Shown here in pieces: positions 12,313 through 59,404 of a stretch of DNA of 64,000 nucleotides (position 1 is its first letter; each line of letters opens with the position of its first letter). The stretch comes from Halobiforma lacisalsi AJ5 (GTDB lineage: Archaea; Halobacteriota; Halobacteria; Halobacteriales; Natrialbaceae), in contig NZ_CP019285.1 in the NCBI RefSeq assembly GCF_000226975.2, positions 1,922,001-1,986,000 of the forward strand, read 5' to 3'. Both the position numbers and the translations under genes were made by a program. The notes under the pieces are model-generated. The model had not been told where the DNA came from and did not search any database. It saw only the letters and a list, made by a program, of their open reading frames with translations.

Positions 12313-12390
12313 GGTGGAGTTTCTCGGCCCGTGGAGAAACCCGTTGGGCCAACAGGCCCGGGCCGTCGGGACCGCGTTCCATCACAACGC

Positions 12391-12397
12391 TTTTATT
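12391..12397 (+). promoter_or_regulatory. TATA element for thrS leader transcript
   Basis: TTTTATT in a GC-rich background, followed about 25 nt later by the first base-paired element of the thrS leader. The expected transcription start is near 12418-12422, about 155 nt before the thrS ATG. Confidence 0.55.
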
Positions 12398-12417
12398 CCG
12401 CTCGAGACTACGCGTAG

Positions 12418-12575
12418 CCACGATGGTAGGTGTCCGCTTTACAGGGGCTTTCGCCCGCTTCTAACCACTCACACCTACCGCTCGCTGTGTTTGCGATCGC
12501 GACCGCACACAGCGCGGCGGCGAGCGCGGACGCCCGACCGAACTTCTCACCGAAGTTCCCAACCTAGCTACAGCT
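12418..12575 (+). ncRNA. structured 5' leader RNA upstream of thrS (four hairpins)
   Basis: The ~158-nt leader contains consecutive perfect inverted repeats. GGTAGGTGT (12425-12433) pairs with ACACCTACC (12471-12479) and encloses a small GGGC-TTTC-GCCC hairpin (12445-12456). GCTCGC...GCTGTGT (12480-12490) pairs with ACACAGC (12507-12513) and GCGAGC (12520-12525). GAACTTC (12540-12546) pairs with GAAGTTC (12552-12558). TAGC/GCTA (12565-12576) touches the thrS start codon. A 13-codon frame MVGVRFTGAFARF (12423-12464) overlaps the first stem and has one ACA Thr codon. The layout resembles a cis-acting translation or attenuation control element, or a processed small RNA. No known riboswitch or T-box matches. 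Confidence 0.6.
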
Positions 12576-14558
12576 ATGTCAGAACCAGAACCAGAACCAG
12601 AAGCAGAACCAGAAGCAGACTCACAGGAACGGATCGCAGTAGTACTGCCCGACGGCTCCGAACTCGAGGTCGACGCCGACGCGACCGTCGAGGACTGCGC
12701 CTACGAGATCGGGCCCGGTCTCGGCAGCGACACCGTCGCCGGCAAACTCGACGGCGACCTCGTCGCCAAGGAGGAACCCGTCTACGACGGCGCGGAACTC
12801 GAGATCATCACCGACGACGGCGGCGAGGAGTACCTCCGCGTGATGCGCCACTCCGCCTCGCACTGTCTCGCCCAGGCCGTCGAGCGGCTGTACGACGCCG
12901 AGGAGGTCAAACTCGCGATCGGTCCGCCGACGGACGAGGGCTTCTACTACGACTTCGACAACCTGGACGTCGACGAGGACGACCTCGAGGAGATCGAGGC
13001 CGAGATGGAGGAGATCGTCGAGGCCGACTACGAGATCGAACGCGAGGACGTCTCGATCGAGGAGGCCGAAGAACGGCTCTCGGACGAACCCTACAAACTC
13101 GAACTACTCTCCGAGTTCGCCGACGAGAACGATCAGGTCTCGTTCTACAAGCAGGGCGAGTGGGAGGACCTCTGTGCCGGCCCGCACGTCGACTCGACGG
13201 GCGAGATCGGCGCAGTCGAACTGCTCGAGATCGCCGGCGCCTACTGGCGCGGCGACGAGGAAAACGAGATGCAGACCCGTATCTACGGCACCGCGTTCGA
13301 GGACGAGAGCGATCTCGAGGAGTTCCTCGAGCGGAAACGGGAGGCCGAGAAGCGCGACCACCGGCGGATCGGCAACGAAATGAACCTCTTCTCGATCCAG
13401 GACGTCACCGGCCCCGGCCTCCCGCTGTATCACCCGCCGGGCAAGACCGTCCTCAAGGAACTCGAGGACTTCGTCGAAGATCTGAACAAAGAGGCGGGCT
13501 ACGACTACGTCGAGACGCCCCACGTCTTCAAGACCGACCTCTGGCACCGCTCGGGCCACTACGAGAACTACGCCGACGACATGTTCATCTTCGACGTCGG
13601 CGACGACGAGTTCGGCCTGAAGCCGATGAACTGTCCGGGCCACGCCGCCATCTTCCAGGACCAGTCCTGGAGCTACCGCGATCTCCCCATTCGGTACGCC
13701 GAGAACGGCAAGGTGTATCGGAAGGAACAGCGCGGCGAACTGTCCGGCCTCTCCCGCGTCTGGGCCTTCACCATCGACGACGGCCACCTGTTCGTCCGCC
13801 CCGACCAGATCGAACAGGAGGTCGAGCAAATCATGGGGATGATCACGGACGTCCTCGAGACGTTCGACCTCGAGTACGAGATGGCGCTTGCCACCCGCCC
13901 CGAGAAGTCCGTCGGGAGCGACGAGATCTGGGAGAAAGCGGAGGACCAGCTCCGGAGCGTTCTCGAGGACCACGGCCACGAGTACGAGATCGAGGAGGGT
14001 GACGGCGCCTTCTACGGGCCGAAGATCGACTTCGCGTTCGAGGACGCGATCGGCCGCTCGTGGGACGGCCCCACGGTCCAACTCGACTTCAACATGCCCG
14101 AGCGGTTCGACCTCTCCTACGTGGGCGAGGACAACGAGGAACACCGCCCCGTGATGATCCACCGCGCGCTGTACGGCAGCTACGAGCGGTTCTTCATGAT
14201 GCTTATCGAGCACTTCGAAGGGAAGTTCCCGCTCTGGCTCGCGCCCGAACAGGTCCGCGTGCTGCCGATTTCCGACGAGAACCTCGAGTACGCCCGCGAG
14301 GTCGCGGTGGAGTTCGACGACTTCCGCGTCGAGGTCGACGACCGCGACTCCACCTTAGAGCGCAAGATCCGCGCGGCCCACGACGATCGGGTCCCCTACC
14401 AGATCATCGTCGGCGACAACGAGGAGGAGGCCGGCAACATCTCGGTGCGTGACCGCTTCGAGGACCAGGAGTACGACGTCGAGATCGAGGCGTTCAAGGA
14501 GCATCTCGAGGCCGAACGCGACGAGCAACGGTCCCAGCCCGACTTCCTGCAGGACTGA
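12576..14558 (+). CDS. thrS: threonyl-tRNA synthetase (bacterial-type, with editing domain)
   Basis: Class II aaRS that charges tRNA-Thr; 660 residues. A Pro-Glu repeat tail (residues 2-16, encoded by CCAGAA-type repeats) precedes a TGS domain (~18-82). The SAD-like editing domain follows, with zinc/hydrolytic residues H92, H96, C200 and H204 (HSASH and LCAGPH). The catalytic core includes MNCPGH with C353 and the anticodon-binding domain runs from about residue 555 to the end. Having this bacterial-type editing domain instead of the archaeal D-tyrosyl-deacylase-like domain is usual for haloarchaea. The acidic tail is an extra not needed for the fold. Expression is probably controlled through the structured leader immediately upstream. 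Confidence 0.96.
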
Positions 14559-17147: not shown

Positions 17148-17632
17148 GGTTATCACCCGCGGGCGTTTCCTGGTTCAATCCCGAAGGGGATCACATCCCG
17201 ACCTGTGGCGGCGTCGGTGCCGAACAGGTGCCCGCTGGCGCCCGCGACCCAGCGAGTCGTCGAAACGTACTCAGCGGCGGTGTATAAGCGCTTCGAACCG
17301 CCCTGACCCTGTCTCGCCCTCTCGAACGGCCGGGTGAGCACCCTCCCGGCTCGACCTGTTTCGGTTCCCTCCACTGGCCCGATACTCGAGTCTCGGTTCG
17401 AGCACATGACGTTCGTTCTCGATCCGGCGGTTCAGCCCGGATACGAAGCCGGAAGCCGCCGTTTCGGTCCCCCATCGGAGCAGACCCTGACCGCAAATTT
17501 CGTATAGCTATATATGATTTATCGTTTCGAATGGCGCTCCCCGAATACGGAACACTGCTGGAGAGTATCGCATGGGTTGGACGTCTCTCCACCGAAATCC
17601 CGCCGAGCGAGAGATCAGGTCCGAAAAACCGG
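17148..17632. other. 485-bp gene-free spacer with an AT-rich promoter-like island
   Basis: I see no credible gene. The translations of open frames here are Arg/Ser/Pro-rich. Near 17490-17525 is an unusually AT-rich island (ATTTCGTATAGCTATATATG then ATTTATCG), the strongest TATA-like sequence for kilobases. It lies 24 nt before an ATG at 17531 that opens a frame antisense to the DUF302 gene. It could be a promoter for an antisense or small RNA, or a distal promoter for rpl15e on the opposite strand. Confidence 0.5.
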
Positions 17633-57593: not shown

Positions 57594-58898
57594 ATGGGTG
57601 AAGAAGCCACGAAGACGATTCAGATGCGCCTTCACATAGCGTCTGGTGAACGGTCGTGGCTTCACGACGCCCGCCTCGCATCACGCGAGATATTCAACCA
57701 AACCATCCGCCTCACACAACAAGGGCACACGCGCACCGAGATACAGCAGGAAGTTGACCGCGACGACTTCTTGCGAAACAACAAGTGCGCGGTCGTCGGC
57801 AAAGCCCTCCAAACGTGGGACTCCTACCAGTCACTCCTTGACTGGTGGGAGAACCACGACGATTCAGATGGAGGCAAGCCGACACCACCGAGTACGGACA
57901 AATCTGGTGCGTACCCGCTCGTGATGGCGCACACGGAAGGCTACCGCCTCACCGTGGACGACGATACGAACCGCGTCCAAGTCCGAATCAGCCCGAAACC
58001 ATACAAGAAGGTCACTGGTCACCTGCGCGGTGAACCGGATGCGATGGACGAACTTCGAGACGCCATCACGTCGGATGGGGTGGATGTGGGGCAGGCTGAA
58101 CTCCTGTACCGCGATGGCGTGTACTACCTACACGTCACGGTCACACGCGAGTTCGACGTGCCCGAACCCGGCACCGCTGATACTGTGGTCGGCGTGGACA
58201 TCAACGAGCGAAACGTCGCTCTCACCGCCCTCGACCGCGAGACGATGCGGACGAAGGGAACACTCGTTCTCGACTACGGACGGGTTAAGCAGGAACGCCA
58301 ACGCTACCATACCATCACCACTCGCTGTCAGGAACATGGCAAGACAAGCATCCACCAGAAACTCGGTGACAAGGAAGAACGCTTCACCGAGTGGGTGTTG
58401 CACCGTCTCTCCCGTGCTGTCGTGGAGTTCGCGGAACAGTTCTCGAACCCGGTTATCGTGTTCGAGGATATGAGCGGTATCCGCGATGAAATCAAGTACG
58501 GGACGTATATGAACCGCCGATTGCACAAACTCCCGTTCCACAAGTTCGAGACGTTCGTGTCGTACAAGGCAACGTGGCGGGAGATTCCCACGGACACGGT
58601 TGATGCCTATTACAACTCGAAGACGTGTTCGTGCTGTGGCGAGCGTGGGTATCGACAGGGACGGCGGTTCCGCTGTACGAATGATGGGTGTGACGTGGTG
58701 CAAGACCACGCCGACCGGAATGCATCGGTGAACATCGCGTGGCGCGAGAAGGTGAAACTCGACGGTAACACGACGAATTACCGGACTCACAAAACCCAGC
58801 CGCAAGTGCGGTTGGTGCGTCTGTCCGGGTCGGGGCGTGTAAACCGCCCAACCTCATCCCGCTCGCTTGCCGAGCAGGGAGTACTAGCGTACGGCTGA
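57594..58898 (+). CDS. tnpB: TnpB, RNA-guided endonuclease of IS605 family
   Basis: A 434-residue TnpB with all RuvC-like catalytic residues: Asp202 in VGVDINERNVAL, Glu291 in VIVFEDMSGIR and Asp374 in DHADRNASVNIA. The zinc ribbon CSCCG...CTNDGCD (C345, C348, C361, C366) is inserted before RuvC-III, as normal. N-terminal WED/REC-like domain precedes. TnpB proteins are guided by RNA from the element's right end to cleave DNA next to a motif, the ancestors of Cas12. ATG at 57594 lies 99 nt from the tnpA GTG. The C-terminus ends LAEQGVLAYG, beside the right end. Confidence 0.93.
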   Translation: MGEEATKTIQMRLHIASGERSWLHDARLASREIFNQTIRLTQQGHTRTEIQQEVDRDDFLRNNKCAVVGKALQTWDSYQSLLDWWENHDDSDGGKPTPPSTDKSGAYPLVMAHTEGYRLTVDDDTNRVQVRISPKPYKKVTGHLRGEPDAMDELRDAITSDGVDVGQAELLYRDGVYYLHVTVTREFDVPEPGTADTVVGVDINERNVALTALDRETMRTKGTLVLDYGRVKQERQRYHTITTRCQEHGKTSIHQKLGDKEERFTEWVLHRLSRAVVEFAEQFSNPVIVFEDMSGIRDEIKYGTYMNRRLHKLPFHKFETFVSYKATWREIPTDTVDAYYNSKTCSCCGERGYRQGRRFRCTNDGCDVVQDHADRNASVNIAWREKVKLDGNTTNYRTHKTQPQVRLVRLSGSGRVNRPTSSRSLAEQGVLAYG

Positions 58899-58942
58899 GG
58901 GAATTACAAAAGCCTCGGGCCACCGCGCCCGAGGTTGTTTAC
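58790..58942 (+). ncRNA. candidate omega-RNA (reRNA) at the right end of the IS element
   Basis: TnpB guide RNAs overlap the end of tnpB and the right end of the element. The 3' border is the CCTCGGGC/GCCCGAGG hairpin (58913-58934) and TTTAC. The 20-nt sequence right after it (GGGTCCCGGGGTTCGGTTCG) would be the guide. The extent of the RNA is inferred, not read directly. Confidence 0.45.
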
Positions 58943-59404
58943 GGGTCCCGGGGTTCGGTTCGACTCGTCGTTTCGGTTTGGTTCTATCGTCGCGTGCTCG
59001 AGTTCGCCCAGTTTTCGACTGTCCGACTCCGTAAGCGGCGGCTCTCGGCTGTCGGAACTCGATCGGGTCGACCGTATCGCTCGATCCTGGCTCGCACAGT
59101 CGAAAGCCCGGGGAGGGAACCACGGGGCCGCGGAAGCCAGCCGACGCCGACCGGTGGCGACGGTCCGGCCGTCGGTCCCGTCGGTCCCGTCGGTCCCGTC
59201 GGTCTGGGGTGGGGTGGAGTGGGGTGAACTCAGCGGAAGGTGGTTCAGCGGAACGTTCGGCTGGGGATGAACCGAAACGCCCGCTGCATTCGTGTATCCA
59301 ACGGCTCCCATAATATCGGTGATGCCAAAATACGTTGGTGGGTTCGAGCGCGCGGCGCGGGACCGAGAGGCAGGTTCAAGGAACTGCTCGAGACAGGACC
59401 TGAC
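58943..59404. other. gene-free spacer with short tandem repeats
   Basis: After the IS right end no gene is evident for ~460 bp. It contains four tandem copies of GTCGGTCCC-type 9-mers (59171-59206), followed by a G-rich GGGGT/GGAGT tract to about 59226. A complementary frame reads as a TDG repeat, but the rest of it is Arg/Pro/Ser-rich and not credible. Possible promoter for the next gene near 59320-59335 (CATAATATCGGTGATG). Confidence 0.55.

Follow-up and report, generated by a model that had tools for sequence, protein, structure and literature searches.

The window, a stretch of 64,000 nucleotides from Halobiforma lacisalsi AJ5, contains the threonyl-tRNA synthetase gene thrS, which an earlier sequence-only reading had placed correctly (the ORF at 12576-14558 is the strong ThrRS match), and upstream of it a structured leader with a short upstream open reading frame (uORF; Table 1). 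The ThrRS relatives and leader motif matches of the window are all Halobacteria, mostly Natrialbaceae, and sampled haloarchaeal families are labelled below by f numbers, that of the window being f1. The TATA-like element reported earlier at 12391-12397 is present as CTTTTAT at 12390-12396. In 80 of 97 leader readings, drawn from about 91 loci of which a few were read twice, the distance from a TATA-like pentamer down to the uORF ATG is 31-33 bp; in the window it is 32 bp. Other haloarchaea provide an internal ruler for this spacing: in most sampled f4, f5, f12, f14 and f17 genomes thrS has no leader and is itself leaderless, its start following the TATA box by about 25 bp. The uORF ATG shows this spacing too, which places it at the leaderless position. 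The 5′ end of the thrS mRNA is probably at the uORF ATG or a few nucleotides before it. No Shine-Dalgarno sequence precedes thrS in f1. Two further elements could be regulator sites or an extended BRE: CTACGCGTAG (12402-12423), a near-palindrome between the TATA box and the start, and CATCACAA, a conserved block on the upstream side of the TATA box. Elsewhere in the window, Rfam matches the eL15-Euryarchaeota ribosomal protein leader (17167-17228, minus strand) and the sot2652 sense overlapping transcript (58777-58962, plus strand).

Table 1. Features of the thrS leader region, in positions of the window.
Feature	Position	Strand	Remarks
Promoter: CATCACAACG upstream part and TATA-like CTTTTAT (12390-12396)	12380-12396	+	Kept in relatives
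uORF (leader peptide) MVGVRFTGAFARF, stop TAA at 12462-12464	12423-12464	+	13 codons; leaderless position; conserved frame
Arm A, last base of start codon to codon 5	12425-12437	+	Pairs with B or C; covariation
Thr codon 7 (ACA), proposed sensor codon	12441-12443	+	ACA in 97/97 leader readings
Hairpin P2 within uORF (GGGC/GCCC)	12445-12456	+	86.9% of cells paired
Arm B, just past uORF stop	12471-12479	+	Pairs with 12425-12433, perfect in window; helix 83.5% of cells paired
Hairpin P3 (CGCTCGC/GCGAGCG and CGCTGTGT/ACACAGCG)	12479-12526	+	Similar in most family relatives by eye; not universal
Arm C	12526-12534	+	Pairs with 12429-12437; excludes A:B; codon-5 covariation
Hairpin P4 (GAACTTC/GAAGTTC)	12540-12558	+	Restricted to a subset of the window's family
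thrS (threonyl-tRNA synthetase; controlled gene)	12576-14558	+	Strong ThrRS match, 660 aa

Leader peptides of this kind comprise 10-18 residues across haloarchaea, with the Thr codon fixed at position 7. Because our search patterns demanded AC at codon 7, the fair count of the Thr codon is that from loci retrieved through homology of the ThrRS protein: all 40 such thrS loci, which belong to the haloarchaeal families f1, f7 and f10, have a uORF with Thr, encoded by ACA every time, including one (L017) with a replaced N-terminus and the same RFT...ARF end. The uORF also occurs in parts of f3, f4, f5 and f17. Genomes of f17 (G090, G147, G190 and others) have two thrS genes, ~68-70% and ~59-60% identical to that of the window, and in those read the leader mostly stands before the second. 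An exact IUPAC scan for ATGGYAGGTGNCYRYTTTACA across the GTDB contig collection (about 85,000 prokaryote species) returned 81 stretches, all haloarchaeal by title; in 80 of 80 checked, thrS is directly downstream and the uORF stop falls within 20 codons. The window holds one occurrence, with none expected.

Differences in uORF length between species amount to whole codons, and relocations of the start are likewise in frame: two lineages have ACG at the usual ATG with an ATG one codon upstream (ATGACG), and other species begin ATGATG. Among 30 distinct 13-codon versions, codons 12-13 vary mainly at the third, synonymous position. At locus L117 the Thr codon is retained despite the loss of Phe6 and a largely changed arm A, together with which arm B has changed (GGCAGAA/TTCTGCC). 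The conservation of frame, start and stop argues that the uORF is a short translated leader ORF, and Thr at codon 7 in all of them that it carries the codon of the regulated amino acid. ACA accounts for 3.5% of Thr codons, and TTT for 5.4% of Phe codons, within the thrS genes; this rarity points to selection on the uORF at the nucleotide level or for rare codons. No synonymous variant of the TTTACA block occurs, and some of its conservation could thus be due to a bound factor; a conserved internal-loop motif facing it was considered and discarded, its 3′ side being variable. At L033 (G086:C20:121434-122034) the uORF stop codon is the site of an insertion that has inverted repeats; here the uORF is longer by 4 codons, arm B is shifted downstream, and 127 nt rather than the usual 60 or so separate the stop from thrS.

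The leader is predicted to fold at -64.7 kcal/mol, compared with -50.6 kcal/mol for shuffles (z -3.3). The sequence-only reading had described it as four hairpins, and the repeats of the first three regions are mostly there: the perfect inverted repeat 12425-12433/12471-12479 enclosing, within 12445-12456, a GGGC/GCCC repeat (12445-12448/12453-12456); the region joining 12480-12490 to 12507-12525, in which 12483-12490 pairs with 12507-12514 and 12479-12485 with 12520-12526; and GAACTTC/GAAGTTC at 12540-12546/12552-12558. The fourth (12565-12576, TAGCTACAGCTA), said to touch the ATG, is trivial and lacks conservation: in relatives the region around the start is open and CA-rich. That description overlooked the uORF and also a competing partner for the first arm. 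Bases 12429-12437 can pair with 12526-12534, and the minimum-energy fold favours this helix over 12425-12433/12471-12479 (A:C -17.0 and A:B -14.7 kcal/mol in the window). Arm C lies ~60 nt beyond arm B, and A:C is seen in f1.

A covariation test on the leaders of relatives, proposed with the original hairpins, proved positive for A:B, P2 and A:C, and comparison across relatives thus backs the earlier view of a conserved cis-acting thrS leader. For A:B plus P2 in 58 sequences, 84.4% of cells are paired against 37-47% in slid controls, and 8 pairs have changed on both sides (0/500 shuffles); arms A and B from the same leader pair at -15.5 kcal/mol as against -12.4 kcal/mol for swapped arms (p=0.001). 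Within f1, codon 5 and arm C change in step: CGC goes with GCGGAC in 28/32, CGT with ACGGAC in 7/9 and TGC with GCAGAC in 8/9 (chi-square p about 4e-12, uncorrected for kinship). Since CGT with ACGGAC recurs across three genera, and two genera share TGC with GCAGAC, these combinations do not go back to one event, with the same proviso on kinship. In f1, A:B and A:C are mutually exclusive, and the position of a ribosome could choose between them.

The earlier remark that no archaeal counterpart was known has to be revised, as haloarchaeal pheS and trpS carry the same kind of leader. In most sampled haloarchaeal families pheS is preceded by a uORF of 24-29 residues at the leaderless position; many of these peptides begin MASE or MAAE, and most end in a Phe cluster, a GFGFFF-like run such as GFGFFFAA. 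At the first Phe codon, arm A (CCGAATCCC) pairs with arm B (GGGATTCGG), and the arms covary. The second type of trpS has a leaderless uORF containing WRW and a covarying A:B stem around it; the versions in Haloferax mediterranei and larsenii are 23 aa each (2703 and 2728 Da). Among the uORFs in long 5′-UTRs listed from dRNA-seq of H. volcanii, on transcripts with mapped starts (Babski et al., 2016; PMC4983044), trpS (HVO_A0127) is preceded by one of 23 aa and 2743 Da, and pheS (HVO_2948) by one of 26 aa; the list carries no remark on cognate codons or structure and does not include thrS. We infer from length, mass and gene that the former is the WRW peptide, and very likely both belong to the same leader class. 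In the sampled Haloferacaceae-like family f5, thrS is mostly leaderless. Conserved stretches were also seen downstream, GGAACCGCTAACTGACC before pheS in the Phe-cluster leaders L141-L170 and a GCTCMCTCGCTTTCTC-like stretch in the WRW trpS leaders L211-L220 and L404-L406. The motif counts for thrS and pheS did not support a 3′ module common to thrS, pheS and trpS leaders, and a B:C alternation in trpS is present in some leaders and not obvious by eye in Haloferax. Conserved uORFs of this kind were not found before tyrS, trpS type 1, ileS, leuS, valS, serS, proS, glyS, alaS, aspS-like or hisS in a scan of ATG starts that took the first ATG per ORF, a result that counts where starts were found, some loci being uninformative.

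Taken together, the comparisons lead us to propose, with a probability of roughly three in four, that the thrS leader senses Thr-tRNA through a ribosome translating the leader ORF, in the manner of a cognate-codon attenuator. A ribosome would load leaderlessly once the 5′ end has emerged. Arm A, which includes codons 2-5, could pair with B after the stop or, in f1, with the more distant C. In the presence of charged Thr-tRNA the ribosome would pass codon 7 and reach the stop, masking B and freeing A, so that A:C could form or, once the ribosome is released, A:B. If Thr-tRNA is scarce, the ribosome is expected to stall at codon 7 and cover arm A, and neither helix could then form. Because a waiting ribosome covers A and one at the stop codon covers B, there would be three states, which fits cognate-codon attenuation. 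The leader would in this way read the charging of tRNA-Thr, and threonine shortage would be expected to raise thrS expression. Of the signals suggested by the sequence-only reading, threonine supply is plausible, with a ribosome on a Thr-codon leader peptide as the likely sensor, and temperature or salt finds no support. The thrS leader has a single Thr codon, which counts against attenuation, since bacterial leader peptides usually hold several codons of the regulated amino acid.

A second point against the proposal is that folding with ribosome masks (crude footprints, 37 °C, no high salt) predicts no uniform output across clades. In f1 nearly every state is predicted to leave the thrS start open; stalling would close the start in f7, g82 and L117, and would open it, relative to the stop-codon state, in two genomes of f10 and one of f17. 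Sequestration of a Shine-Dalgarno sequence by B was set aside as a general output, appearing only in the clades that have such a sequence and in the unexpected direction. In four f17 leaders (L071, L102, L110 and L119) arm A (GTGACT or GTGGCT) could mask the thrS start directly, as it is complementary to AGTCACAACC, which immediately precedes the ATG. A tentative variant of attenuation, which we regard as possible for a minority of the probability, is classical transcription termination, with A:B followed by a T-rich stretch as a terminator, the formation of which a stalled ribosome would block. The direction would suit a starvation response, TTCTC or TTTTC lies at most 45 nt from the stop in most non-f1 leaders, and both T stretches and some hairpins can serve as termination sites in haloarchaea (PMC7237163). 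Against this, TTCTC or TTTTC occurs in just 8/55 f1 leaders, and a T5 tract in none of them, which makes a plain haloarchaeal terminator less likely.

Two explanations dispense with threonine sensing by the uORF or altogether, and we consider both unlikely, and to the same degree. In one, ThrRS or some other protein binds the RNA as an operator, with GGTAGGTGTCCGCTTTACAGG as the putative binding site and no sensing role for the uORF. Such an operator would account for a leader specific to thrS and for first 21 nucleotides that are conserved as nucleotides, rare codons GTA, TTT and ACA included; it would not account for the conserved reading frame, the stop before B, the in-frame start relocations or the cognate codons that pheS and trpS leaders hold in turn, and the leader offers neither a tRNA-like fold nor an anticodon-like loop. 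In the other, a constitutive uORF tunes thrS translation or mRNA stability through a 5′-terminal stem cap or reinitiation. A 5′-end A:B helix could indeed block leaderless reinitiation or 5′ exonucleases, and the mask models, with no uniform switch, are compatible with this; left unexplained is why the universally kept residue matches the gene, with Thr at thrS, Phe at pheS and Trp at trpS. Arrest by the nascent peptide, stalling its own ribosome on free threonine or another ligand, is highly improbable: the C-terminal ARF* is kept through synonymous changes in f1, but outside it the C-terminus is unconserved (ARN, ART, PTH, RAP, GPL and others). Chance hairpins in an ordinary structured 5′-UTR form easily in GC-rich DNA, and many haloarchaeal thrS genes are leaderless, but covariation, thrS specificity and frame conservation refute this reading as far as sequence comparison can.

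The bacterial models invoked by the sequence-only reading, a T-box or a tRNA-like operator, also fall away. Rfam gave no T-box or other meaningful match on the leader, hence no T-box with specifier and antiterminator; ARAGORN found no tRNA, and the P2 loops hold no conserved anticodon-like triplet, leaving no tRNA-like fold with a Thr anticodon mimic. The likeness to the T-box thrS leaders of Firmicutes is a thrS 5′ leader thought to respond to tRNA-Thr charging, here with a uORF that is predicted to be translated; that to the E. coli thrS translational operator is a structured thrS leader, here unrelated in sequence and equipped with a uORF. As in translational attenuators such as ermCL-ermC, the position of a ribosome on the uORF could alter pairing near the main start, whereas the haloarchaeal thrS leader involves no antibiotic or peptide arrest, and f1 leaders have no Shine-Dalgarno sequence and show little change in the start region in models. 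The closest parallels are the bacterial leader-peptide attenuators (pheM-pheST, trpL, thrL and hisL), with which the haloarchaeal leaders share a short cognate-codon leader ORF, rival arm pairings and an aminoacyl-tRNA synthetase (aaRS) gene downstream. They differ in that the leader ORF is archaeal and at the leaderless position, that the thrS leader has one Thr codon preceded by arm A, and that the family of the window has no recognised terminator.

Attenuation through the translation of leader peptides is textbook bacterial regulation. The kind of mechanism proposed here is therefore known, and what would be new, provisionally, is its occurrence in archaea and in leaderless form. We think it probable, with somewhat less assurance than for thrS alone, that haloarchaea possess a class of leaderless leader-peptide attenuators at thrS, pheS and trpS, in which the leader ORF would be initiated without a Shine-Dalgarno sequence and, for thrS in the family of the window, competing pairings at the extreme 5′ end of the mRNA would form the switch; this would be the first documented case of ribosome-mediated cognate-codon attenuation in Archaea. 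A search of the open-access literature found no archaeal aaRS attenuator, and novelty is claimed provisionally on that basis. In PMC10219788, uORFs are said in general terms to act in archaea too, in statements that give no aaRS attenuator as a case. If the proposal is correct, it would explain uORFs already mapped in H. volcanii, and Haloferax pheS and trpS, together with Natrinema thrS, would offer model species ready for testing. It would also link leaderless translation with gene control in archaea, and would raise the question of whether the mechanism had an independent origin in Archaea.
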